Shown one piece after another: positions 36,435 to 47,858 of a stretch of DNA of 64,000 nucleotides (positions within the stretch are counted from its first letter, which is position 1; each line of letters starts with the position of its first letter). The translations under genes and the position numbers were made by a program. The DNA is from Firmicutes bacterium HGW-Firmicutes-7 (lineage in GTDB: Bacteria; Bacillota; Clostridia; Lachnospirales; Vallitaleaceae): NCBI GenBank assembly GCA_002841375.1, contig PGZO01000009.1:1-64000 (forward strand), read 5' to 3'. Under the pieces are notes generated by a model. The model was given only the letters and a program-made list of their open reading frames with translations. It did no database searches and was not told where the DNA came from.

Positions 36435-37400
36435 ATGAAAAATATAGCAAAAAGAGGTTTATTGTTTATTTTGGTATTAGTGCTCGTCTTGGTTACTGGG
36501 TGTGGTGGGAAAGCTACAAAGGAAGGAATTGTTCAGAACGATAAAATTACCGTATATACTAGTTTCTATGCGATGTATGATTTTGCGAATAAAATTGGGG
36601 GAGATAAAATTAACTTAATTAATCTTGTTCCTTCTGGAACTGAACCCCATGATTGGGAGCCAACGCCTAACGATATTGTTAAACTTGAAAAGGCAGATGT
36701 ATTCATATATAATGGAGTTGGAATGGAGCATTGGGTTGAAAAAGTATTAGAGTCAATTGATAATGAACAATTAATTGCAGTTGAGACAACTAGAGGATTA
36801 AAACTTCTTGAGGGTGGGGATGTACATGAAGAGGAAGAAGACGATGAAGATGAAGAGGAAGAAGACCATGAAGATTTGAAATATGATCCCCATGTGTGGT
36901 TAAATCCTATGTTGGCAAAACAACAAATGGCAGCCATCAAGGAGGCGTTTATAGAAGCCGATCCTTCAAATAAAGAATTTTATGAAAATAACTATATCAA
37001 TTATGCATCAAAATTAGATGAACTTTTTGAAGAGTTTACTTCAACATTATCAAAGCTTGAGAATAAAGATATTATAGTAGCACATCAGGCCTATGGTTAT
37101 TTATGTGATGCCTTTGGATTAAATCAAGTTCCAATAGAAGGGCTTAATGCTGATGCAGAACCTTCACCCGCTAGGATGGTGGAGATTATAAAATTTGCAC
37201 AAGAAAATGACATTAAAGTAATATTCTTTGAAGAATTGGTGAGTCCTAAAGTAGCAGAAACCATAGCAAAAGAAATTGGCGCAGAAACAGCTGTTCTAAG
37301 TCCTATAGAGGGATTAATAGAAGAGGATATTCTAGCCGGAAAAGAATATTTCTCTGTAATGAGAGATAATCTTGAGGCTTTAAAACAAGCTTTGAAATAA
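36435..37400 (+). CDS. znuA: Zinc ABC transporter substrate-binding lipoprotein
   Basis: A 321-residue cluster A-I metal-binding protein. The lipobox VTGC puts the lipid-modified cysteine at residue 23. Metal ligands expected for the family are His72 (GTEPHDW), His153 (YDPHVWLNP) and His217 (AHQAYGYL). A loop between them (about 130-148) is strongly acidic (EEEEDDEDEEEEDHED) with only two His, unlike the His-rich loop of many ZnuA proteins. It probably feeds zinc to the ABC ATPase and permease at 26.4-28 kb, as no transporter is adjacent. Strong Zur-like operator and AGGAGG upstream. Confidence 0.92.
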   Translation: MKNIAKRGLLFILVLVLVLVTGCGGKATKEGIVQNDKITVYTSFYAMYDFANKIGGDKINLINLVPSGTEPHDWEPTPNDIVKLEKADVFIYNGVGMEHWVEKVLESIDNEQLIAVETTRGLKLLEGGDVHEEEEDDEDEEEEDHEDLKYDPHVWLNPMLAKQQMAAIKEAFIEADPSNKEFYENNYINYASKLDELFEEFTSTLSKLENKDIIVAHQAYGYLCDAFGLNQVPIEGLNADAEPSPARMVEIIKFAQENDIKVIFFEELVSPKVAETIAKEIGAETAVLSPIEGLIEEDILAGKEYFSVMRDNLEALKQALK

Positions 37401-37429
37401 TGTAATAATACAAGTTGTAGGTGATTAAT

Positions 37430-37852
37430 ATGAAAAATTCATGTAAAGAAATTTTAATGGATAAAGGCCTCAAGAATACGCGCCATAGGGAGCGTATTCT
37501 TGAGGTATTCAAAAAATCCGACAGGCCTTTAACTGCGGAAGAAATTTTTTTGATTTTAAAGAGTAACTCCGAAAATAGTTGTTTATCTACCGTGTATAGG
37601 ACTGTTGAAGTTTTTGAAGCAAAAGGACTAGTACTTAAGTCCAATAGTATTGATGACGGGAAAGCACGATTTGAATTCAATACGAAGGAACATAAGCATC
37701 ATGTGATTTGTACGCGTTGTCATCAAATTATTTTCATTAATGAGTGTCCTTTTAGTGAGTTTGAAAAAAAACTAAAAGATAAAATTGATTTTGATATTAC
37801 CGGTCATAAGTTTGAAATCTATGGGTATTGTAAAGAATGCCAAGATCAGTAG
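37430..37852 (+). CDS. Fur-family metalloregulator, probably Zur
   Basis: A 140-residue Fur-family repressor: N-terminal winged helix (KNTRHRERILEVFKKSDRPLTAEEIF, then CLSTVYRTVEVFEAKGLV), and a C-terminal domain with HKHHVICTRCHQ and GYCKECQ, giving the two C-x2-C pairs of the structural zinc site. Position after znuA and the dyad at the znuA promoter suggest it senses zinc; PerR or Fur function cannot be excluded by sequence. The start is ATG 37430 (AGGTGA upstream); a GTG at 37421 is less likely. A 14-bp perfect hairpin lies inside its coding sequence (37468-37505). Confidence 0.85.
   Translation: MKNSCKEILMDKGLKNTRHRERILEVFKKSDRPLTAEEIFLILKSNSENSCLSTVYRTVEVFEAKGLVLKSNSIDDGKARFEFNTKEHKHHVICTRCHQIIFINECPFSEFEKKLKDKIDFDITGHKFEIYGYCKECQDQ
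37468..37505 (+). repeat. Perfect inverted repeat inside the Fur-family gene
   Basis: CCTCAAGAATACGC (37468-37481) and GCGTATTCTTGAGG (37492-37505) are exact reverse complements with a ten-base loop. It encodes part of the DNA-binding domain and has no U-run. Confidence 0.85.
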
Positions 37853-37890
37853 AGAGTATGTAGAAACGAGAAGGGATTAAAAATGAAATA

Positions 37891-38874
37891 ATGACTAATT
37901 TGACACAAAAACTAGATGGATTTACAATTATTTTTACAAGTATCATTCTTGAAGCCATACCATTTGTTCTTATTGGAGCTATAGTTTCTTCATTTATTCA
38001 ACTATTTGTTTCAGAAAAAACGATTCAAAGCTTATTACCGAAAAATAAATACGTTGCCATAATAGGAGCTTCGTTTATGGGCATTATCTTTCCTGTTTGT
38101 GAATGCGCAATTATTCCAATCATGAGAAGACTTGTAAAGAAAGGTGTACCATTGGATGTGGCTATTACGTTTATGCTTTCGGTTCCAATACTTAACCCTA
38201 TTGTTTTGTTATCGACATATTATGCATTCACAGGCCAACCAAGTATGGTGTTATATAGAGGTATTTTAGGTGCATTTGGTGCAATTATTATAGGATTGAT
38301 TGTTGGAAGATTGAACCATAGGAATGTCCTTAAGATTAGTGCAACAAATTTTGAACCTAGTTGTTGTACCAATCATAATCATGAAGAACATCTTGATCAA
38401 GAAGAGCATCATCATGAATGTACGCAAGATACTGTACATATTAGAATTGGCGTAAATCAAACAAAGCGAAAAATACTTAGTAGTATCATTGATCATACTA
38501 GCCATGAATTTTTTGAAGTAGGTCGTTTTTTAATTATTGGTGCATTTTTGTCAGCTTTAATGCAAACATTATTACCTAGAACTACGCTTATGGCAATAGG
38601 AAAAGGACCAATAAATTCTATTATTGTACTTATGTTATTGGCGTTTGTATTATCGATATGTTCAGAGGCAGATGCTTTTATAGCAAGAACTTTTGTCGGA
38701 CAGTTTACACAAGGTTCAATTGTTGCTTTTTTAATATTTGGGCCAATGTTAGATATTAAAAATATGATTATGTTAAGTGCAACGTTTAAAGCAAAATTTC
38801 TACTCAAATTGGTAACAGTGATTACCATAGTATGCTTCTTATTGGCCTTAATGGTAAATATTATTATAGGATAG
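37891..38874 (+). CDS. YraQ/UPF0718-type permease with His-rich loop
   Basis: A 327-residue membrane protein of the DUF318 permease family with about eight segments in two homologous halves. Each half has a diagnostic motif: FPVCECAIIPIMRR and ICSEADAFIART. The cytoplasmic loop between halves (about 155-185) is rich in His and Cys (CCTNHNHEEH, HHHEC), suited to binding zinc. It lies 38 bases after the Fur-family gene and ten bases before a TIGR03943 gene. Such pairs (YcgR/YcgQ type) recur in zinc-starvation regulons, so a role in zinc handling is inferred. The ribosome site is weak. Confidence 0.8.
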   Translation: MTNLTQKLDGFTIIFTSIILEAIPFVLIGAIVSSFIQLFVSEKTIQSLLPKNKYVAIIGASFMGIIFPVCECAIIPIMRRLVKKGVPLDVAITFMLSVPILNPIVLLSTYYAFTGQPSMVLYRGILGAFGAIIIGLIVGRLNHRNVLKISATNFEPSCCTNHNHEEHLDQEEHHHECTQDTVHIRIGVNQTKRKILSSIIDHTSHEFFEVGRFLIIGAFLSALMQTLLPRTTLMAIGKGPINSIIVLMLLAFVLSICSEADAFIARTFVGQFTQGSIVAFLIFGPMLDIKNMIMLSATFKAKFLLKLVTVITIVCFLLALMVNIIIG

Positions 38875-38883
38875 GAGTAAAGT

Positions 38884-39657
38884 ATGAAAAAAGTCAATAT
38901 TAATGCATGGATGTGGTTCTTTGTTCTAATTGTGTATTGTGTATTTATGATTCACTTGATTGTAAGTAATAGGATTCTATTATTTATTCACCCTAAAATG
39001 ATTAAATACATTGCTTTTACTATAATTGTATTTATTATTTTGATATCTCGTCAAATAATACAGCTCAATAACATTAAAAACAGCTCAAATAAGCTAGATT
39101 TAAGTTTTTTGATTTTCATGTTGCCTGTTATATTAACGGTTATAGTAAATCCAAATCAGTTAAATGCTAAAACAGCTGTTAATAAAGGGATTAATATTCC
39201 GAGTGTTAGTCAACAACTTGAGGTTCCAGATGAAACGGAAAAATCAGAAGAATTAGTTCAACCTATTCAGGTAGAAGTGGGGTATAACACTCAAGAGGGG
39301 AAGGATTTTTTAGATGTAATCGAGGGAATATCTAACGACTTTGAAAATGTATTAGGTACGAAAGTAGAAATATCAGGATTTATATTTTTACAGGAAGATT
39401 TTAATGAAGGACAATTTGTAATTTCGAGGTATATGATGAACTGCTGTGCGGCAGATGTACAGCTTATCGGTGTACTATGTAAATATTCAGATGACTATCC
39501 CTTAGTAGCGAATGAATGGATAAAAATATCCGGCATTGTGGATCAGATTATGTATAAGGGGAGTTCTGATGAAGAAGAAATCGAAATGGCACAAATTATA
39601 GTGAGTGAGGTTGAAGGAATCATAATCCCAGATGATCAATATGTTTATCCTTATTAA
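38884..39657 (+). CDS. TIGR03943-family membrane protein
   Basis: A 257-residue protein with three N-terminal hydrophobic segments (about 8-27, 34-57, 71-88) and a long soluble domain. The motif NCCAADVQLIGVL near 180 is the signature of the TIGR03943/DUF1980 family, which always accompanies a YraQ-type permease. The conserved cysteine pair may bind metal. It is last in the zinc operon. Function unknown beyond the association. Confidence 0.85.
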   Translation: MKKVNINAWMWFFVLIVYCVFMIHLIVSNRILLFIHPKMIKYIAFTIIVFIILISRQIIQLNNIKNSSNKLDLSFLIFMLPVILTVIVNPNQLNAKTAVNKGINIPSVSQQLEVPDETEKSEELVQPIQVEVGYNTQEGKDFLDVIEGISNDFENVLGTKVEISGFIFLQEDFNEGQFVISRYMMNCCAADVQLIGVLCKYSDDYPLVANEWIKISGIVDQIMYKGSSDEEEIEMAQIIVSEVEGIIIPDDQYVYPY

Positions 39658-39753: not shown

Positions 39754-41886
39754 TTATTTAAGACCTAATTCTTTTCGTTTTTTCTCAATATGATCCACAT
39801 AAATTTGGATTGTTTTTTCTGCATCCATTTCTACAACCACTTTTCCAAGTCCTAAGGATTCGGTTGTCTCAGTAAGTGTCTTTACTACTACATCACTACC
39901 AGTTATGGAGGGTACCGGTGCAATGTGCACAAGCCAACCTAAAGCGATTGCGGTACAAGCATCAGCAACTGCTTTTTGTTCTAAATATTCAGGGGCACCA
40001 ATTACAATTGGTAACATATTGGTATCTACTTTGAGGGCATCAGCGAGTTCTTTAGCGGTATGGGTCATTTTACCAATATCTACGCAAGCGCCATATGAAA
40101 GGACTGGTGGTATTCCTAGTTGTTTGCATACAGCTTTTAAACCATCACCACATTCTTCTGCGGCTTCTGGTTGAGTAAGTCCGGTATATTCCATCACTGA
40201 AGAAGTACAACCGCCAGATAGTACGAGAATATTGTTTTTGATTAAACCTTGTGTTATTTTAAAAACATTACTGCCGCCTTGCCCATAGCGAGCAGTAGTA
40301 CAACCAACAATCGTTGCAATGCCACGAATATTGCCATTTGCAATTTGTTCAATAAGTGGATCAAAGGTACCATCTAATGCTTTTTTGATGGATTCGGTGC
40401 TAAATCCAATGGTACAATTTGAAATATGAGGAGGAATATAGGTTTTCCTATTTTCGCTTTTTCTTTGTTTAAAAGCATCTAAGGCCATATTTAATGCTTT
40501 TTCTGCTTGTTCTTTCATTTTTTCAGGGATAAAATCTAAAGTTTCAGTGCCTTGTAACTTAATGATGGGGTGCGTGCTTAAAAGTTTGGTGCCAAAGCGT
40601 TTAGCGTATAAGGGCATCGTTGGTACAGTACAGTTATAATCAAACATAAATAAATCTATAACACCTGTGGCTAATACATACTCCTGTGACAACCATTCAC
40701 CTTCTTGCCCTGCATATGCTTTCTGGTGATGCATACCCTCATAATTAATCAATTGCTGTCCTTCACATACATGACCTAATATTTGAATACCATCTGCACC
40801 TAGAGCTTGTGCTTTTTGCTGCCATTCGTCTGTTGAGGCTAAGTCTATGGCTACATGAGCTAATAGTGGCATGTGCCCATTTGTAATGATATTGACCATG
40901 TTGTTTTTCAATAAACCCATATTTTGTTGTTTATTAGCAATTTCCTGTGTACCCATAAGGATTTCTTGAATTAGGTCAAGTAATAATAATCCTTGGTATT
41001 CATTAGCAACACCTAAGCGTACACTATTGAGAAGAAAATCTACGGGATCAGAGGAGAAATTGGTCATACATCTTGTTTGAGCATAAGCAATTTCACTATA
41101 GCCACCTCCTGGAAAAAGACCAAGCTTATTCCATAGTTCTTTACGCTGAGTTGGAGCAAAGGCTTCAACCGCTTTTGAAGGAATATGGTATGGTGCGTGA
41201 ATATCATTGATTACCCAATCCGCAAACTGAATGGCAAGGGCTTCAATAGGTTGATTGGCATCAAGCCCTGCCATATCTGCATATTTCTTTAGTTTTTCAG
41301 CATCACGTATTTTCAAACCACTTTCAGGGTGCTCACCTGCAGCTTTTAGCGTTCTAGCAGCTTGATGACAATGAAAGATATTAGCGGCAGTTCCAATTGT
41401 AACGTGCCGATACATGAAGTTTCTTGCTACCATAGTATGAGCATCAACACCACAGGTTCCACGTGGTGCTTTTTCATTTATACGACAAGGGCCGTTAGCA
41501 CATAATTGACAGGATAGACCTTCGATGCAAAATTGACATTGTAAAGGTTGCTGCTCACTAAAACGGTCAAAAACATTCGTCAAGCCTGATTCGTGAACGA
41601 CTTGATACATTTCCCGCATAGCAGGATCAATAATTACATTAAGCGGATAGCCTCGCTTTGACTGATCATGTTTTTTTATATGTTTTCTTTGCCATTTATG
41701 CACTTCTTTCATATCAGGCATTTTTTCTATATGTTCATAATCAATAGGATTGCGATTATGAAGATCTTGATGGGAATTTGGGTCATTTGAATCTTCAGCC
41801 GTAAGTTTAGAACCAAAAGTAGCCTTGCTACCACTCATACGCTCAGCACTTTTTTCAAAGGATTTTTTTATTTCTTTATCAGACAT
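39754..41886 (-). CDS. cooS: Ni-Fe carbon monoxide dehydrogenase catalytic subunit
   Basis: A 710-residue CO dehydrogenase interconverting CO and CO2. C-cluster ligands are recognisable: His in NGHMP, Cys in GHVCEG, FDYNC, IVGCTTAR, SGGCTSSV and YGACVD, with the lysine in EQKAVA. The B-cluster cysteines are 126, 129, 134 and 145. The D-cluster region reads C117-x2-C120, and the residue before Cys126 is Ser, so the usual C-x7-C spacing is absent. About 80 extra residues precede the cluster region compared with typical enzymes. It stands alone, with no cooF, acsB or hydrogenase genes nearby. Nbp35 and MinD-type ATPases lie across a divergent region. Confidence 0.95.
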   Translation of the reverse strand: MSDKEIKKSFEKSAERMSGSKATFGSKLTAEDSNDPNSHQDLHNRNPIDYEHIEKMPDMKEVHKWQRKHIKKHDQSKRGYPLNVIIDPAMREMYQVVHESGLTNVFDRFSEQQPLQCQFCIEGLSCQLCANGPCRINEKAPRGTCGVDAHTMVARNFMYRHVTIGTAANIFHCHQAARTLKAAGEHPESGLKIRDAEKLKKYADMAGLDANQPIEALAIQFADWVINDIHAPYHIPSKAVEAFAPTQRKELWNKLGLFPGGGYSEIAYAQTRCMTNFSSDPVDFLLNSVRLGVANEYQGLLLLDLIQEILMGTQEIANKQQNMGLLKNNMVNIITNGHMPLLAHVAIDLASTDEWQQKAQALGADGIQILGHVCEGQQLINYEGMHHQKAYAGQEGEWLSQEYVLATGVIDLFMFDYNCTVPTMPLYAKRFGTKLLSTHPIIKLQGTETLDFIPEKMKEQAEKALNMALDAFKQRKSENRKTYIPPHISNCTIGFSTESIKKALDGTFDPLIEQIANGNIRGIATIVGCTTARYGQGGSNVFKITQGLIKNNILVLSGGCTSSVMEYTGLTQPEAAEECGDGLKAVCKQLGIPPVLSYGACVDIGKMTHTAKELADALKVDTNMLPIVIGAPEYLEQKAVADACTAIALGWLVHIAPVPSITGSDVVVKTLTETTESLGLGKVVVEMDAEKTIQIYVDHIEKKRKELGLK

Positions 41887-41943
41887 AGATGCCTCCTATA
41901 ACTTTGTTTTTTTTAGAATTACCAATTTGTTGTAATAATATAC

Positions 41944-42051
41944 AGTGTCAAAAGTACTTAGTTGTTCTTTCCTATACAGCATATAGCATATGGATGCTTT
42001 AACCATCTACTATATGCTGTATAGGAATTAGAACAACTTACTTTTGACACT
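41944..42051. repeat. 108-bp imperfect inverted repeat between cooS and mrp
   Basis: The left arm (41944-41985), starting AGTGTCAAAAGTA, and the right arm (42011-42051), ending TACTTTTGACACT, pair over about 42 positions with a few bulges around a 25-base loop. There is no transposase or clear target duplication. It lies between divergent genes. Confidence 0.8.
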
Positions 42052-42165
42052 ATAACTTGAAACCCAAGACAAAAATTTCATTTGGGTATTTGACAGTAAC
42101 TCAACTTAGGTATATTATTATAAAGAGCATATGCCATAAATTATTATAATTAAGGAGTATTTGAA

Positions 42166-42996
42166 ATGTCAGAATGTACAAGTTGTTCATCTAATGATAA
42201 CTGCACAAGGGATAAAGAAAAGTGCCAGGTTGTGAGTAACCCATTTAGTAAAATTAAAAGAGTAATAGGCATTATGAGTGGAAAAGGTGGTGTTGGTAAA
42301 TCAACAGTTGCAGTATCCATTTCAAAGCAATTAAAGAATATGGGGTATCAAGTAGGTATATTGGATGCAGATATCACTGGACCTAGCATTCCTAGATTAT
42401 TGGGACTGCAAAATGAAAGAGCAATAAATACAGAAGAGTATATCTTGCCAGTTGAATCTGTTGATGGGATTCGTGCAATGTCTTTGAATTTTTTAATTGA
42501 AGAGGAAAAAAGTCCAGTTATTTGGAGAGGGCCAGCAGTATCGAATGTTGTTAAACAGTTTTATACTGATGTTTTTTGGGGAGATTTAGATTTTCTTATT
42601 ATTGATATGCCACCAGGCACGTCGGATGTTGCTTTAACTGTTATGCAGTCAATACCACTCAATGGTGTAGTTATGGTAACGTTGCCCCAAGATATGGTTT
42701 CAATGATTGTAGCCAAAGCAGTGAATATGACGAAAACACTTTCTATACCAGTACTTGGCGTAATTGAGAACATGAGTTATATAACTTGTCCAGATTGTGG
42801 AAAACACATTGAGTTGTTTGGTGAGGGAAATAGTGATGAATTGCTTTATGGTTTGCAGCTGGAGCTTTTAGGAGAACTTCCAATGACGAAGGAAGTAGCT
42901 AAGCTTTCATCTGAACGAGAGGCGAGTGATTCGGAAGTTATGAATACTTTATTTGCACCAATAGTTAAGAAAATTATTAGTGCAGTTAACTTATAG
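42166..42996 (+). CDS. Mrp/Nbp35-type iron-sulphur cluster carrier ATPase
   Basis: A 276-residue P-loop ATPase. The deviant Walker A SGKGGVGKS is at about 38-46; IWRGPAVSNVVKQF and MPPGTSDVALTV are typical of Mrp. Four N-terminal cysteines (4, 7, 13, 20) form an Nbp35-like cluster site, and the C-terminal CPDC is the second, bridging cluster site. It is thought to carry [4Fe-4S] clusters to target proteins. Opposite cooS, it may help mature the CO dehydrogenase or serve general Fe-S assembly. ATG follows AAGGAG. Confidence 0.9.
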   Translation: MSECTSCSSNDNCTRDKEKCQVVSNPFSKIKRVIGIMSGKGGVGKSTVAVSISKQLKNMGYQVGILDADITGPSIPRLLGLQNERAINTEEYILPVESVDGIRAMSLNFLIEEEKSPVIWRGPAVSNVVKQFYTDVFWGDLDFLIIDMPPGTSDVALTVMQSIPLNGVVMVTLPQDMVSMIVAKAVNMTKTLSIPVLGVIENMSYITCPDCGKHIELFGEGNSDELLYGLQLELLGELPMTKEVAKLSSEREASDSEVMNTLFAPIVKKIISAVNL

Positions 42997-43162: not shown

Positions 43163-43223
43163 GTTATTGACATATGACCAAAATAGAGTATAATAGGTAA
43201 TGTAATGGGTATATGTCAATAAC
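43163..43223 (+). promoter_or_regulatory. Promoter of the NifX-MinD cluster inside a 13-bp dyad
   Basis: TTGACA (43167-43172), 16-base spacer, TATAAT (43189-43194). GTTATTGACATAT (43163-43175) and ATATGTCAATAAC (43211-43223) are exact reverse complements flanking it; the left arm contains the -35 box. Looks like an operator pair; the regulator is unknown, with the nearby DUF134 protein a candidate. Confidence 0.75.
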
Positions 43224-43242
43224 AAACAAGGAGGTAATAAAT

Positions 43243-43335
43243 ATGCCAGGTAGAGATGGAACAGGTCCATTGGGACGTCGAGCATTAAGTGGAAGAGGAC
43301 TTGGAGTTTGCACTAGAACAAATATTGTTAGGTAA
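43243..43335 (+). CDS. 30-residue peptide, DUF5320-like
   Basis: A short gene with ATG 43243 behind AAGGAGG. The product begins MPGRDGTGPLGRRALSGRGLG and has one cysteine. This Gly/Arg-rich opening is the signature of small DUF5320 proteins that sit beside NifX-like and MinD-like genes in anaerobes. Only the head is present; family members often continue into a cysteine- or coiled-coil tail. The strong ribosome site and position after a clear promoter support translation. Function unknown. Confidence 0.75.
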   Translation: MPGRDGTGPLGRRALSGRGLGVCTRTNIVR

Positions 43336-43366
43336 AAAAAACGTGTAAAAATAAGGAGGATATCTA

Positions 43367-43735
43367 ATGAAAATTGCAATACCTGTAGATGATAAATCTG
43401 TGGAAACACATATTTGCCAATCTTTTGGACGTACACAATATTTTTTGATTTATGATACAGAAACAAAGGAAAAGATATTTCTAGATAATCGAGCGGCAGG
43501 AAGCCAAGGTGGTGCTGGCATTAAGGCAGCGCAGACGGTTGTAGACAACAATGTAAATGTTTTACTTACACCCCGATGTGGGGAGAATGCCGCAGGGGTT
43601 ATAAAAGCTGGAAATATAAAAATATATAAGACAATAAGTGAATCTATCCAAGATAATATTCAGGCTTATATTGATGGCAAGTTATCTTTGCTGGAGGATA
43701 TACATGCAGGGTTTCATAATCATGGAGGAGAATAG
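43367..43735 (+). CDS. NifX/NifB-type iron-molybdenum cofactor domain protein
   Basis: A 122-residue protein of the dinitrogenase iron-molybdenum cofactor family. It starts MKIAIPVDD, has FGRTQYFLIYD and later LTPRCGENAAGVIKAG. In nitrogen fixers this fold carries the cofactor; stand-alone forms occur in many anaerobes without nitrogenase and probably bind Fe-S or other metal clusters. It is followed at once by two ferredoxin-MinD ATPases. ATG follows AAGGAGGA. Confidence 0.88.
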   Translation: MKIAIPVDDKSVETHICQSFGRTQYFLIYDTETKEKIFLDNRAAGSQGGAGIKAAQTVVDNNVNVLLTPRCGENAAGVIKAGNIKIYKTISESIQDNIQAYIDGKLSLLEDIHAGFHNHGGE

Positions 43736-43736
43736 C

Positions 43737-44594
43737 TTGAAGATCGCTGTGCTAAGTGGCAAAGGTGGTACAGGCAAAACATTACTATCTGTAAATATGG
43801 CTGCCACAGCAAAAAAAGCTATATATATTGATTGTGATGTTGAAGAACCGAATGGTCATTTGTTTTTTAAACCTCAAAATATGATGTCAGAAGAGATATC
43901 TATTAAGATTCCTATCGCAGACGAAAAACTTTGCAGTGGCTGTCGTGTGTGTGTTGACTTTTGTAAATTTAATGCGTTAGCGTATATTAACAATAAATTG
44001 ATTGTCTTTGATGAAGTTTGCCATTCCTGTGGGGGATGTGTACTGTTATGTCCTAATAGAGCCTTGTCAGAAGAAGAAAAAATAATTGGTAAAGTACAAA
44101 AAGGTGTTTCTGAGAGTGTTACTGTAATTACAGGGATATTAAATACAGGTGAAGCTTCGGGTGTTCCAATCATTAAGAAACTTTTGAAGGATCTTGAAGG
44201 GGAAAAAGAAATTGTCTTCATCGATTGTCCTCCTGGAAGTGCCTGTATTGTTATGGAAAGTATAAAGGATGCAGATTATTGTGTACTGGTGGCTGAGCCA
44301 ACTTTATTTGGTGTGCATAATCTTAATATGGTTCTTGAATTAGTAACATTATTTAAAAAACCATATGGCGTGGTGCTAAACAAGTGCTTAGAGAGTGAAA
44401 ATCCCGCAGAAAAATTCTGTATCGAAAAAGAACTTATAATCTTAGGGAAGATTCCATTTGATCTTGAACTTGGTACATTGAATTCTAACGCTTTGATTTC
44501 AGCAAGAGAAAATAAGAAGTATTATGAAGTGTTTTCATCATTGCTTCAACTTGTGATGAAGGAGGTTGAGCATGAAACAGCTATTAATTCTTAG
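43737..44594 (+). CDS. MinD-type ATPase with inserted 2[4Fe-4S] ferredoxin, copy 1
   Basis: A 285-residue ParA/MinD ATPase. The deviant Walker A SGKGGTGKT is at 7-15 and CPPGSACIV is the Walker B region. An eight-cysteine ferredoxin is inserted after beta-strand 2: Cys66, 69, 72, 76 and Cys95, 98, 101, 105, each C-x2-C-x2-C-x3-C. The likely start is TTG 43737, six bases after GGAGGAG and one base after the NifX stop; an upstream ATG at 43638 would overlap NifX by 98 bases. It probably inserts or moves clusters in an ATP-dependent way; its target is unknown. The gene overlaps the next by 23 bases. Confidence 0.85.
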   Translation: MKIAVLSGKGGTGKTLLSVNMAATAKKAIYIDCDVEEPNGHLFFKPQNMMSEEISIKIPIADEKLCSGCRVCVDFCKFNALAYINNKLIVFDEVCHSCGGCVLLCPNRALSEEEKIIGKVQKGVSESVTVITGILNTGEASGVPIIKKLLKDLEGEKEIVFIDCPPGSACIVMESIKDADYCVLVAEPTLFGVHNLNMVLELVTLFKKPYGVVLNKCLESENPAEKFCIEKELIILGKIPFDLELGTLNSNALISARENKKYYEVFSSLLQLVMKEVEHETAINS

Positions 44595-45432
44595 TGGTAA
44601 GGGCGGTACGGGTAAAACTACTATAGCTAGCGCTTTTGTTAAACTATCAGCGGCTAAAGCATTTGCAGACTGTGATGTGGATGCACCTAATTTACATCTG
44701 GTCATGAAGCAGTCAGTTCAAGCCAAACAAAGTGATTATTATGGGTTACCTAAAGCAGAGGTTAACCAAGATTTATGTATTAAGTGTGGCTTGTGTACAG
44801 AAAATTGCCGATTTTATGCAATTAACGGAGAGGATGAGGTTAAAGTGGATTTCTATAGCTGCGAAGGTTGCGGTGTTTGTGAAGCCATATGCCCAGTAGG
44901 AGCTGTAACGCTAAAACCTGTCATTGCAGGAGATCTAATGCTCTATGTCGACGATTCAGTCTTTTCCACTGCACAGCTTAAAATGGGAAGTGGCACGTCA
45001 GGAATGCTAGTATCAAAGGTGAAGGCGCAACTGAAATCAGTAGATATTAATACGCCGCTTATAATTATTGACGGATCACCGGGCATTGGGTGCCCTGTAA
45101 TAGCATCGCTAAGCGGTGTGGATATGGTGCTTGTTGTTGCAGAACCATCTATATCGGGAATTAGTGATATGGAACGTATTATTCATACTGCAGAAAAATT
45201 TCAAACAAGGGTAGCTGTTTGCATTAATAAATATGATACGAATGTAGAAAACACAGAAAAAATAGAGCGCTTTTGTATGGATAATTCCTTGCTTTTTTGT
45301 GGAAGAGTACCCTTTGATTCCGAGGCTATAAAAGCAATCAATAATGGAATGAGTATAGTTGAAATGAACTGTAGGGCAGGAGATGCCGTCAGAGATGTTT
45401 TTGCAAAGTCAATTAAAATATTATTTAGCTAA
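44572..45432 (+). CDS. MinD-type ATPase with inserted 2[4Fe-4S] ferredoxin, copy 2
   Basis: A 286-residue paralogue of the preceding protein. Deviant Walker A SGKGGTGKT is at 8-16 and the ferredoxin cysteines are 69, 72, 75, 79 and 97, 100, 103, 107. The active-site region reads DGSPGIGCPV. ATG 44572 follows AAGGAGG; the TTG six bases earlier is not needed. Paired copies of this ATPase are common in anaerobes and archaea and probably form a heterodimer. The cluster ends here, and the DUF134 gene has its own promoter. Confidence 0.9.
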   Translation: MKQLLILSGKGGTGKTTIASAFVKLSAAKAFADCDVDAPNLHLVMKQSVQAKQSDYYGLPKAEVNQDLCIKCGLCTENCRFYAINGEDEVKVDFYSCEGCGVCEAICPVGAVTLKPVIAGDLMLYVDDSVFSTAQLKMGSGTSGMLVSKVKAQLKSVDINTPLIIIDGSPGIGCPVIASLSGVDMVLVVAEPSISGISDMERIIHTAEKFQTRVAVCINKYDTNVENTEKIERFCMDNSLLFCGRVPFDSEAIKAINNGMSIVEMNCRAGDAVRDVFAKSIKILFS

Positions 45433-45480
45433 AATAAAAAGGTTCACGTCTCATATTATTACTTGAGCATGCAGTTAATG

Positions 45481-45508
45481 TTGATAGTTGCCAAAAACAT
45501 GGTATAAT
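45481..45508 (+). promoter_or_regulatory. Promoter of DUF134-ppk2
   Basis: TTGATA (45481-45486), 16-base spacer, TATAAT (45503-45508). Confidence 0.65.
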
Positions 45509-45579
45509 GACTTTAAAGATAAATAAGCATTATATATATTCAAATAGAGCAACAGTTGGTGCCAAGGAGGTAGTTAAAT

Positions 45580-45942
45580 ATGGCAAGACCGAGAAAGTTT
45601 AAGAGAGTGTGCTGTTTACCAGAGGTCACATTATTTGGACCATTAAATAATAATGAGCTTCAACAAGAAGATGTATGTATGACAGTTGAAGAATATGAAG
45701 TTATTAGAATGATGGATTATGAAGGACATAATCAAGAAGAATGTGCCAAAGCAATGGGCGTTGCTAGGTCTACAATACAAAGAATTTATGATGATGCTCG
45801 TAAAAAAATTGCTGACAGTTTAATAAATGGAAAATCTTTAAAGATTCAAGGTGGAGATTATAAATTATGTAGCGAGTTTGGTGAAGAATTTCCTTGTAAA
45901 AGAAAAGGATGTCATAAAAGAAGTCAACATTTAGAAGAATAA
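45580..45942 (+). CDS. DUF134 HTH regulator
   Basis: A 120-residue DNA-binding protein. MARPRK..RVC at the N-terminus and a sigma-70 region 4-like helix-turn-helix (NQEECAKAMGVARSTIQRIYDDARKKIADSL) define the DUF134 family. Cysteines around 24, 105-112 (PCKRKGC) could sense metal or redox state. DUF134 genes are regularly found with NifX-like and MinD-like genes, so it may control that cluster, whose promoter is framed by a 13-bp dyad. ATG follows AAGGAGG. Confidence 0.88.
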   Translation: MARPRKFKRVCCLPEVTLFGPLNNNELQQEDVCMTVEEYEVIRMMDYEGHNQEECAKAMGVARSTIQRIYDDARKKIADSLINGKSLKIQGGDYKLCSEFGEEFPCKRKGCHKRSQHLEE

Positions 45943-47733: not shown

Positions 47734-47752
47734 AATTTTCAATTGAATATTG

Positions 47753-47842
47753 CTAGAGGAGCCAGTGTTGCTGGCTGAGATAAAGAACGATATTCTTTGA
47801 CTCTTATACCTGATCTGGATAATGCCAGCGTAGGAAAGTGTA
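47753..47842 (+). ncRNA. TPP riboswitch (THI element)
   Basis: Contains GCTGGCTGAGA and ACCTGATCTGGATAATGCCAGCGTAGGAAAG, in two adjacent parts of the typical thi-box core. It is followed by a terminator and thiW, so thiamine pyrophosphate would reduce expression. Confidence 0.96.
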
Positions 47843-47858
47843 TGATAGAATTTATAGG

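Follow-up and report, generated by a model that had tools for sequence, protein, structure and literature searches.

Which regulator acts on the operon that encodes a NifX-like protein and two ferredoxin-MinD ATPases in Firmicutes bacterium HGW-Firmicutes-7, and what might this operon do? In the window, i.e., the whole 64-kb stretch of DNA that was analysed, the gene set was confirmed as a DUF5320-like peptide, a NifX/ORP protein, two ferredoxin-MinD ATPases and a DUF134 protein, with an Mrp/NBP35 gene upstream, all on the + strand. The Mrp/NBP35 Fe-S carrier ATPase (42166..42996; PF10609, 303 bits; NF041136, 310 bits, below its cut-off of 450) has 276 aa and lacks the fused NifX domain of MrpORP, with no PF02579 match. 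The single-domain ORP/NifX protein (43367..43735) matches PF02579 (Nitro_FeMo-Co) with 83.5 bits at a cut-off of 26.3, and its PDB matches include 1RDU (3e-15), MTH1175 (1EO1, 4e-14) and ORP (2WFB, 3.7e-9). The first MinD-like ATPase with 4Fe-4S motifs (43722..44594, start codon uncertain) carries AAA_31, CbiA and Fer4 domains, and the second (44572..45432), likewise with 4Fe-4S motifs, carries CbiA and Fer4; the NifX-like protein and the two ferredoxin-MinD ATPases of the sequence-only reading were thus borne out. The DUF134 protein, our predicted regulator, closes the operon (45580..45942; PF02001, 87.0 bits, cut-off 27). Outside the module, its neighbour on the - strand is cooS, which encodes the catalytic subunit of the anaerobic CO dehydrogenase (39754..41886; TIGR01702, 661 bits), and a Fur-like gene is found at 37421.

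The first gene of the operon (43243..43335) had been described as a DUF5320-like peptide of 30 residues. The family assignment stands (PF17253, 32.8 bits, cut-off 27), but the gene is truncated: it retains only the MPxRDGTGP...GLGxC start, the homologue in the same-genus relative L039 is 86 aa long, and the remainder of the gene is absent from the window. It is the shortest of the 53 different ORFs that begin in this way in the loci compared; judged from these sequences, the peptide is a shortened relic of a DUF5320 gene.

The operon is preceded by a σ70-type promoter (43167..43194, + strand) with TTGACA at 43167-43172 and TATAAT at 43189-43194, which had been described as bracketed by exact 13-bp arms. 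The two arms, GTTATTGACATAT (43163-43175) and ATATGTCAATAAC (43211-43223), are indeed exact inverted repeats, and the left one contains the -35 box; however, each arm is half of a palindrome of its own. The dyad consists of two 20-bp palindromes (TTATTGRCATATGYCAATAA), one covering the -35 box (site 1, TTATTGACATATGACCAAAA, 43164..43183) and kept in relatives, and the other, inverted, located downstream of the -10 box (site 2, 43203..43222). Using a scoring matrix built from 158 operators, with the window excluded, we scanned the 64 kb; sites 1 and 2 ranked first and second, with scores of 23.4 and 22.3. The third-ranking site (19.5) is a single palindrome (42121..42140) located after the -10 box of a putative Mrp promoter (42090..42118, + strand; TTGACA at 42090-42095, TATTAT at 42113-42118), and this arrangement recurs in L039 with a score of 20.9. 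Ten simple base shuffles of the window yielded no score above 17.5. The host genome contains the exact dyad only once. It has three pair sites, each at the head of an operon with a NifX gene, and a single DUF134 gene; two of these pair sites lie far from that gene. Another palindrome, between cooS and the Mrp gene (41941-42054), was rejected as a regulatory element, as its 114 bases, used as a query, were matched 75 times in the host genome, often on both strands of a single place.

That this operator is conserved we regard, on the sequence comparisons that follow, as practically certain. The same promoter and operator are found in relatives despite a different gene order, and within the genus the promoter/operator retains 51 of 61 bases, compared with 97 of 164 aligned bases in the preceding flank, where the alignment also has 132 gap columns. 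The pair pattern was found in 11 of 22 family genomes (reversed control, no matches) and in 80 of 391 class genomes (reversed control, 3 matches), where 92 sites remained after both-strand matches of one pair had been merged and the strand with the better -10 kept. The palindrome extends to bases outside the search pattern, namely TTA, conserved at 88, 88 and 84% in 159 distinct operators. The 39-bp distance between palindrome centres in the window is the commonest spacing (44/159), followed by 38 bp (38/159); as distances range from 27 to 44 bp, no single loop geometry is indicated.

The genes that follow these sites depend on the quality of the -10 box. In the scan of named genomes (at least 119 stretches and at least 121 sites), among the matches listed, a module-family gene was located within 2 kb downstream in 66 of 78 sites with a -10 match of at least 5/6, in 8 of 16 sites with 4/6, and in 0 of 27 sites below 4/6. 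For the other 12 sites with a good -10, no module family was recognized within 2 kb on the strand concerned among the matches listed, and 3 of them had fewer than 600 bases of sequence left. Within this group, inspection by eye shows a DUF134-like ORF in L147; L176 encodes a cation efflux-NifX fusion, L229 contains a divergent DUF134-NifX-MinD operon, and L187 has a seemingly unrelated ABC-transporter-type operon. As far as sequence comparison goes, the operators precede DUF134, DUF5320, NifX, Mrp and MinD genes and occupy a set place on σ70-type promoters.

The DUF134 protein is matched over its full length by PF02001 and contains a helix-turn-helix (HTH) similar to σ region 4 at residues 37-77 (PF04545, 30.7 bits, cut-off 24.1), while Pfam and profile searches of its 120 aa gave no match to σ region 2, which binds the core and the -10 box. 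The nearest solved folds to its structure model (pLDDT 80.7) are mainly σ region 4, although the Foldseek E-values are weak (best 0.07) and the Z-score near 8 is a value that a common arrangement can give; the archaeal-factor structures 8HNO and 8HNP also match. Searches of the PDB returned one LuxR-type chain at 0.0036 with the single sequence, and one σ factor at 0.0044 with a profile, followed by weaker HTH chains up to E 10; by these sequence searches, DUF134 has no clear solved relative. DUF134 shares with σ70 region 4 proteins an HTH sequence match and a similar predicted fold, and the half-sites of the operator contain the -35 hexamer; unlike σ70 factors, it lacks region 2 and is predicted to be a stand-alone regulator, not a σ factor. 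A putative counterpart, Tfx of Methanothermobacter (PMC3087415), is archaeal. A NifX-like second half is present in 21 DUF134 proteins; in 16 of these, the C-terminal 70 residues include 12 or more His/Cys, and Pfam found both domains in the three fusions checked (3/3). A natural DUF134-NifX fusion occurs, for example, in Selenomonas ruminantium (L159).

The titles and abstract openings in the open-licence literature searched assign no function to DUF134/UPF0251 and none treats it as a regulator; the module gives this family a predicted operator, regulon and sensor partner. In excerpts of other papers, a UPF0251 gene is hit by an insertion in adapted rex mutants, and the family is otherwise named in a motif list and a gene table.

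We consider it quite likely that DUF134 is the protein that binds the operator, based on their joint distribution across genomes. DUF134 is present in 74 of 80 operator genomes compared with 74 of 311 other class genomes (Fisher, p 1e-30) and, by genus, in 50 of 52 with the operator compared with 60 of 171 without it (p 2e-16); the genus-level count was sorted by hand with a looser DUF134 set, and these tests allow for relatedness no further than the genus. The stricter set leaves out 19 of 167 DUF134 genomes with a best E above 1e-10, and both versions were computed. At least 56 of 92 operator sites lie within 1 kb of a listed DUF134 gene, and the operator is present in 29 of 75 DUF134-positive genomes without the MinD profile compared with 5 of 239 with neither, and in 1 of 4 with the MinD profile but without DUF134, which are too few to weigh; cross counts are approximate, as some searches took in 380 genomes and others 391. 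Conversely, the strict pair pattern is missing in 74 of 148 DUF134 genomes, some of which have looser sites. No operator pair was found in the subgroup with VSRQTFQN-type DUF134 proteins (L035, L037, L040, L052), and the loci L047 and L054 of this type have single palindromes, not pairs, before Mrp.

These counts could also be explained if the palindromes were the operator of another regulator common in anaerobes, e.g., of the Fur type, and DUF134 a frequent target. Since most operators adjoin DUF134, such a reading would account for much of the co-occurrence, including the 29/75 versus 5/239 contrast. At 40 of the 78 named sites, among the matches listed, the nearest module-family gene downstream is DUF134 itself, and such co-location cannot distinguish a target from a binder; thus, we slightly lowered our estimate for DUF134 as the binder. 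Fur-like genes were seen by eye in 5 of 6 other module loci (L038, L039, L046, L057, L058), in addition to the one in the window; nevertheless, with the window Fur-like protein as a query, a match was obtained in 2 of the 57 named loci that have both the operator and a module gene, in a search that was insensitive and missed L046. The sites distant from any DUF134 gene speak against another regulator. We considered the class sample with a -10 match of at least 4/6 and no DUF134 in the surrounding stretch, leaving out L270, L272 and L273 (-10 below 4/6), L264, L265 and L281 (stretch contains DUF134) and the two host stretches L285 and L286 (found with a looser pattern). Of these 15 promoter-like sites, 11 are in genomes with DUF134 elsewhere, compared with a base rate of 148/391 (p 0.006), and the two distant host sites point in the same direction. 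The other four, in genomes without DUF134, favour another regulator: G288 (71% complete) has NifX and MinD genes downstream, G274 is 97% complete, and G315 and G183 have no module gene near the site. On balance, we find another regulator improbable.

The promoter of DUF134's own operon thus carries a conserved operator, as for an autoregulated repressor, and the positions of the sites, over the -35 box and after the -10 box, suggest repression; that DUF134 represses rather than activates is, in our view, likely. As an activator, DUF134 bound to site 1 over the -35 box would recruit the polymerase as a mimic of σ region 4, with site 2 acting as a feedback brake, which would agree with the modelled fold and with a palindrome containing TTGRCA. 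However, the search pattern itself fixes a perfect -35 box, a -10 match of at least 5/6 is likewise present at 78 of the 121 named sites among the matches listed, and the Mrp site is located only after the -10 box. Repression fits these good -35 and -10 boxes and the Mrp site better, and activation seems unlikely. Taken as a whole, it is quite likely that the dyad serves as an operator with two sites for DUF134, whose gene ends the operon, and this constitutes the best explanation.

Regarding the function of the module, the statement that none is established holds, though a related system, the ORP (orange protein) complex of Desulfovibrio, has been studied. Excerpts of two papers (PMC6345978, PMC3897727) describe this complex as DVU2103-DVU2109, with MrpORP, which passes Fe-S clusters to Orp3-Orp4-Orp8 in vitro. 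As far as these excerpts go, both systems, in anaerobes, encode together a single-domain ORP/NifX protein, two ferredoxin-MinD ATPases and an Mrp/NBP35 carrier. The PF02579 and 2WFB matches given above identify the ORP/NifX protein as a homologue of Orp8, and the CbiA and Fer4 domains make the two ATPases putative counterparts of Orp3 and Orp4. The module differs in that its Mrp lacks the fused NifX (Di-Nase) domain and has its own promoter, and in that it adds the DUF5320 remnant and DUF134. Its promoter is of the σ70 type with palindromes, whereas Desulfovibrio uses σ54, IHF and DVU2106; among the seven genes between 42166 and 46765, Pfam found no DVU2106-type enhancer-binding protein. The DVU2106 palindromes were reportedly defined by Fievet in 2011. 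A Mo-Cu sulphide cluster on ORP is a further feature of the Desulfovibrio type.

The proposal of metal-cluster assembly or delivery as a general role is supported by the homology to ORP and Mrp proteins, and we lean slightly toward metal-cluster handling as the role of the module. Placement of the division septum is quite improbable: the ATPases are MinD-like and, in the excerpts, the Desulfovibrio orp genes have a putative part in septum positioning (PMC3897727, PMC6345978), but the further operator targets examined, a small set, are redox or metal genes (flavin reductase, C_GCAxxG_C_C, metallo-β-lactamase fold, cation efflux-NifX fusion) with no division gene among them.

A tie to CooS had been suggested from position and was not sustained: many genomes have the module but no CODH. 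The MinD-type ATPases were found in 77 genomes; CooS is encoded in 30 of these and nifH (over the cut-off) in 18, and 42 contain neither. The description as common in anaerobes without nitrogenase is correct as a count (59/77 without nifH over the cut-off), but the host itself has a gene over the cut-off, on contig C35; a nitrogenase link was rejected on the same count. CooS lies within 30 kb of a listed DUF134 gene in at least 2 of 71 CooS genomes, one being the host, and the neighbourhood is kept in a same-genus genome, so that the adjacency looks like local synteny; classification as a CODH accessory (CooC-like) module was likewise rejected. Assembly of CODH or delivery of its nickel cluster as a specific role is thus very improbable: CooS adjoins the module in the window and in the genus, is enriched among module genomes (odds ratio 4.1, uncorrected for relatedness) and the MinD profile matches CooC (3KJE, 1.3e-7), but this profile also matches other MinD-type ATPases, 47 of 77 module genomes lack CooS, adjacency to a listed DUF134 gene was seen in the 2 of 71 CooS genomes given above as a lower bound, and nifH is similarly enriched (4.6, also uncorrected), which makes the CooS link non-specific.

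Returning to repression by DUF134, we propose that a DUF134 dimer would bind each 20-bp palindrome via its σ-region-4-like HTH and, once bound, block the -35 box and the start region, repressing Mrp and its own operon together with two or more further NifX loci of the host. A metal or metal-sulphur species, probably carried on a NifX/ORP protein, would relieve repression, and in some species this sensor may be part of DUF134 itself; we give such a signal an even chance, as it is a guess drawn from the DUF134-NifX fusions and the gene content. Induced Mrp could then load Fe-S clusters into both ferredoxin-MinD ATPases, which, with the ORP protein, might hold, move or detoxify a metal-sulphide cluster, as in the Desulfovibrio ORP complex.

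More broadly, and tentatively, at somewhat under even chances, DUF134 proteins may be widespread one-component regulators that use a detached σ-region-4 fold on palindromic -35-like hexamers, compete with σ and respond to a metal-sulphide cluster of the NifX/ORP type, carried by a partner protein or a fused domain. If true, this would make DUF134 a new class of regulators that sense such clusters, in Bacillota, Chloroflexota and Synergistota. Many anaerobes carry DUF134 and DUF5320, two families of unknown function, and a sharp operator makes DUF134 a testable regulator. The operator also yields a list of candidate co-regulated genes, i.e., NifX paralogues, Mrp, ferredoxin-MinD, flavin reductase, C_GCAxxG_C_C and the cation efflux-NifX fusion, and the role of ORP/NifX-like proteins outside nitrogenase would become approachable via their regulation and inducing signal.

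On the forward strand, the Mrp/NBP35 gene (42166-42996) is followed by a dyad-bearing promoter (43163-43223) and then by the genes for a 30-residue DUF5320-like peptide (43243-43335), a NifX/ORP protein (43367-43735), two ferredoxin-MinD ATPases (43722-44594 and 44572-45432) and DUF134 (45580-45942), with CooS encoded upstream of the module on the opposite (-) strand. The window sequence and its gene order agree with the coordinates and gene calls of the sequence-only reading, whose module with a framed promoter is confirmed, and is stronger than stated. The 13-bp arms of the dyad match exactly, and comparison with relatives showed that each is part of its own 20-bp palindrome, TTATTGRCATATGYCAATAA. 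Site 1 overlies the -35 hexamer, while 8 bases lie between the -10 box and site 2. Using a scoring matrix built from 158 operators, the window excluded, these sites obtained the top two scores in the 64-kb window, and the third-ranked site (42121-42140) lies directly after the -10 box of a putative Mrp promoter. All three scored above the best of 10 simple base shuffles and are also present in a genome of the same genus (L039), where 51 of the 61 bases of the dyad are kept; the intergenic sequence upstream of it retains 97 of 164 aligned positions, and its alignment has 132 gap columns.

Other elements were observed around the module. A 114-bp near-palindrome (41941-42054), a MITE- or REP-like hairpin, sits between CooS and Mrp and is high-copy in the host genome (75 match lines, some places counted on both strands). 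A TPP riboswitch (47745-47853; Rfam RF00059, 75.3 bits) lies upstream of a ThiW-type transporter gene. The region adjoining CooS (36435-39657), a possible metal homeostasis cluster, encodes a zinc/manganese-type ABC binding protein and, by eye, has a permease-like gene and one for a Fur-like regulator.

The GTDB collection was also scanned at the DNA level alone; the matches listed comprise 119 stretches with 121 sites. Where the -10 box was good (at least 5/6 matches, 16-18 bp from TTGACA), a module-family gene lay within 2 kb downstream at 66 of 78 listed sites, 58 of them with DUF134; the corresponding counts among listed matches were 8 of 16 at 4/6 and 0 of 27 below 4/6. Over the 78 listed sites, the first module-family gene was DUF134 (40), DUF5320 (20), NifX (4), Mrp (2) or none (12). 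Examples with DUF134 downstream of the site are Acetobacterium bakii (L163), Anaerovirgula (L121), Faecalicatena (L160) and Selenomonas ruminantium (L159), as well as assemblies of Synergistaceae (L118), Dehalococcoidia (L117) and Anaerolineaceae (L124). Across the 159 distinct operators whose -10 box is good, the palindrome is maintained by bases outside the search pattern: TTA precedes the left core (88, 88 and 84%), and the right side carries an A/T-rich mirror run. The palindrome centres are 27-44 bp apart, at 38 or 39 bp in 82 of the 159. The placement of one site across the -35 box and the other immediately past the -10 box fits repression. Seven loci (L157, L183, L203, L213, L221, L227 and L230), two of them Nocardia and Mycolicibacterium records, have similar sites in common, of the form TTGACATATGTCGAAAAGGTG...TTCGAYATATGTC or nearly so; no module-family gene was called near them, and the sites look like an unrelated element.

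The pair pattern, TTGACATATGN{18,42}YATATGYC, was derived only from loci of the window's family, of which the host is the sole member in the class sample of 391 genomes. It was found in 80 of these genomes (92 sites once strands were merged), against 3 hits for the reversed-pattern control. DUF134 was detected in 167 of the 391, 148 of them at E below 1e-10, and was present in 74/80 operator genomes versus 74/311 others (Fisher p 1e-30, uncorrected for relatedness); when genera were counted instead, hand-sorted and with a looser DUF134 set, the proportions were 50/52 and 60/171. Six operator genomes lack DUF134. The -10 boxes at the sites of G069 and G297 are poor (3/6); the sites of G315 and G183 (5/6) and G274 (6/6) lie in stretches without a module gene; and in G288, which is 71% complete, NifX and MinD genes are directly downstream.

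DUF134 could be a mere target of the operator rather than its binder. Co-occurrence alone is compatible with this, since most sites adjoin DUF134, at least 56 of the 92 being within 1 kb of one. The operator's presence in 29 of 75 genomes with DUF134 but no MinD profile, versus 5 of 239 with neither, shares this weakness and does not separate binder from target. A fairer test uses distant class-sample sites with no DUF134 in the surrounding stretch: 11 of 15 such promoter-like sites (-10 of at least 4/6) lie in genomes with DUF134 elsewhere (base rate 148/391, p 0.006), which modestly favours DUF134 as the predicted binder. Outside these 15, the host itself has two sites without DUF134 around them (L285 and L286). 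The real find is the operator, together with its probable link to DUF134.

The host genome has a single DUF134 and, with a slightly looser pattern, three pair sites, which precede the module operon, a NifX gene (contig C12) and a flavin-reductase and NifX operon (contig C48). Pattern and matrix searches found no operator site at a fourth NifX gene (contig C36), whose neighbours are apparent ammonium transporter and PII-type genes. Among the genes called closest downstream of operators in other genomes are those for C_GCAxxG_C_C, for proteins of the metallo-beta-lactamase fold, glutamate-synthase-like and Fer4/CCG types, and for a cation efflux protein fused to NifX; one operator-headed operon includes DUF169. 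The efflux-NifX fusion, behind an operator in Acetobacterium fimetarium (L176:177-1406), may export the signal metal.

The 30-aa peptide is the shortest of 53 distinct ORFs with a DUF5320 start in the collected loci (one other is 38 aa, the rest 66-112 aa), the same-genus gene encodes 86 aa, the remainder of which was not found in the window, and a start-less remnant, ATATCAGGTAGAGATGAAATAGACCC, a decayed version of that DUF5320 start, precedes the flavin reductase on C48 (by eye; L060 7510-7570). The peptide is therefore probably a relic, and DUF5320 seems to be decaying in the host, leaving this stub and the C48 remnant.

The window DUF134 matches sigma-70 region 4 in Pfam, and the main solved neighbours of its predicted model (pLDDT 80.7) are sigma region 4 domains, with weak E-values. 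By eye, 21 DUF134 proteins over 200 aa among the collected loci have a NifX-like second half, and both PF02001 and PF02579 were found in all three of these tested. At least 12 His or Cys occur in the last 70 residues of 16 of the 21, and many carry HFGHTE-like and CDH stretches; the MrpORP paper names CXHFGHCE and CDH motifs as likely ligands in the MrpORP NifX domain. These fusions, with their ligand-like motifs and residues, are taken as the best hint that the signal would be a metal or metal-sulphur species. A second DUF134 subgroup (L035, L037, L040 and L052) differs in its recognition helix (VSRQTFQN) and ends in a tail rich in Cys; no operator pair was found at these four loci.

A tie of the module to CooS, to which the sequence-only reading pointed, is not supported, because CooS is absent from 47 of the 77 genomes positive for the MinD profile (380 searched). 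CooS over cut-off occurs in 71 of 391 class genomes, and it lies within 30 kb of a listed DUF134 in at least 2 of these 71. Of the 77 genomes with the MinD profile, CooS is present in 30, nifH over cut-off in 18 and neither in 42. In PDB searches, the window NifX protein matched MTH1175, 1RDU and the ORP structure 2WFB, and Mrp matched Fe-S carrier structures; for Desulfovibrio, in vitro Fe-S cluster transfer from MrpORP to Orp3-Orp4-Orp8 is reported (PMC6345978, PMC3897727). Because of these matches and this transfer, it is reasonable that the module would work like the Desulfovibrio ORP complex, although two defining features of the latter, the fused MrpORP and sigma54 control, are absent here. 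A metal-cluster role of the module is plausible.
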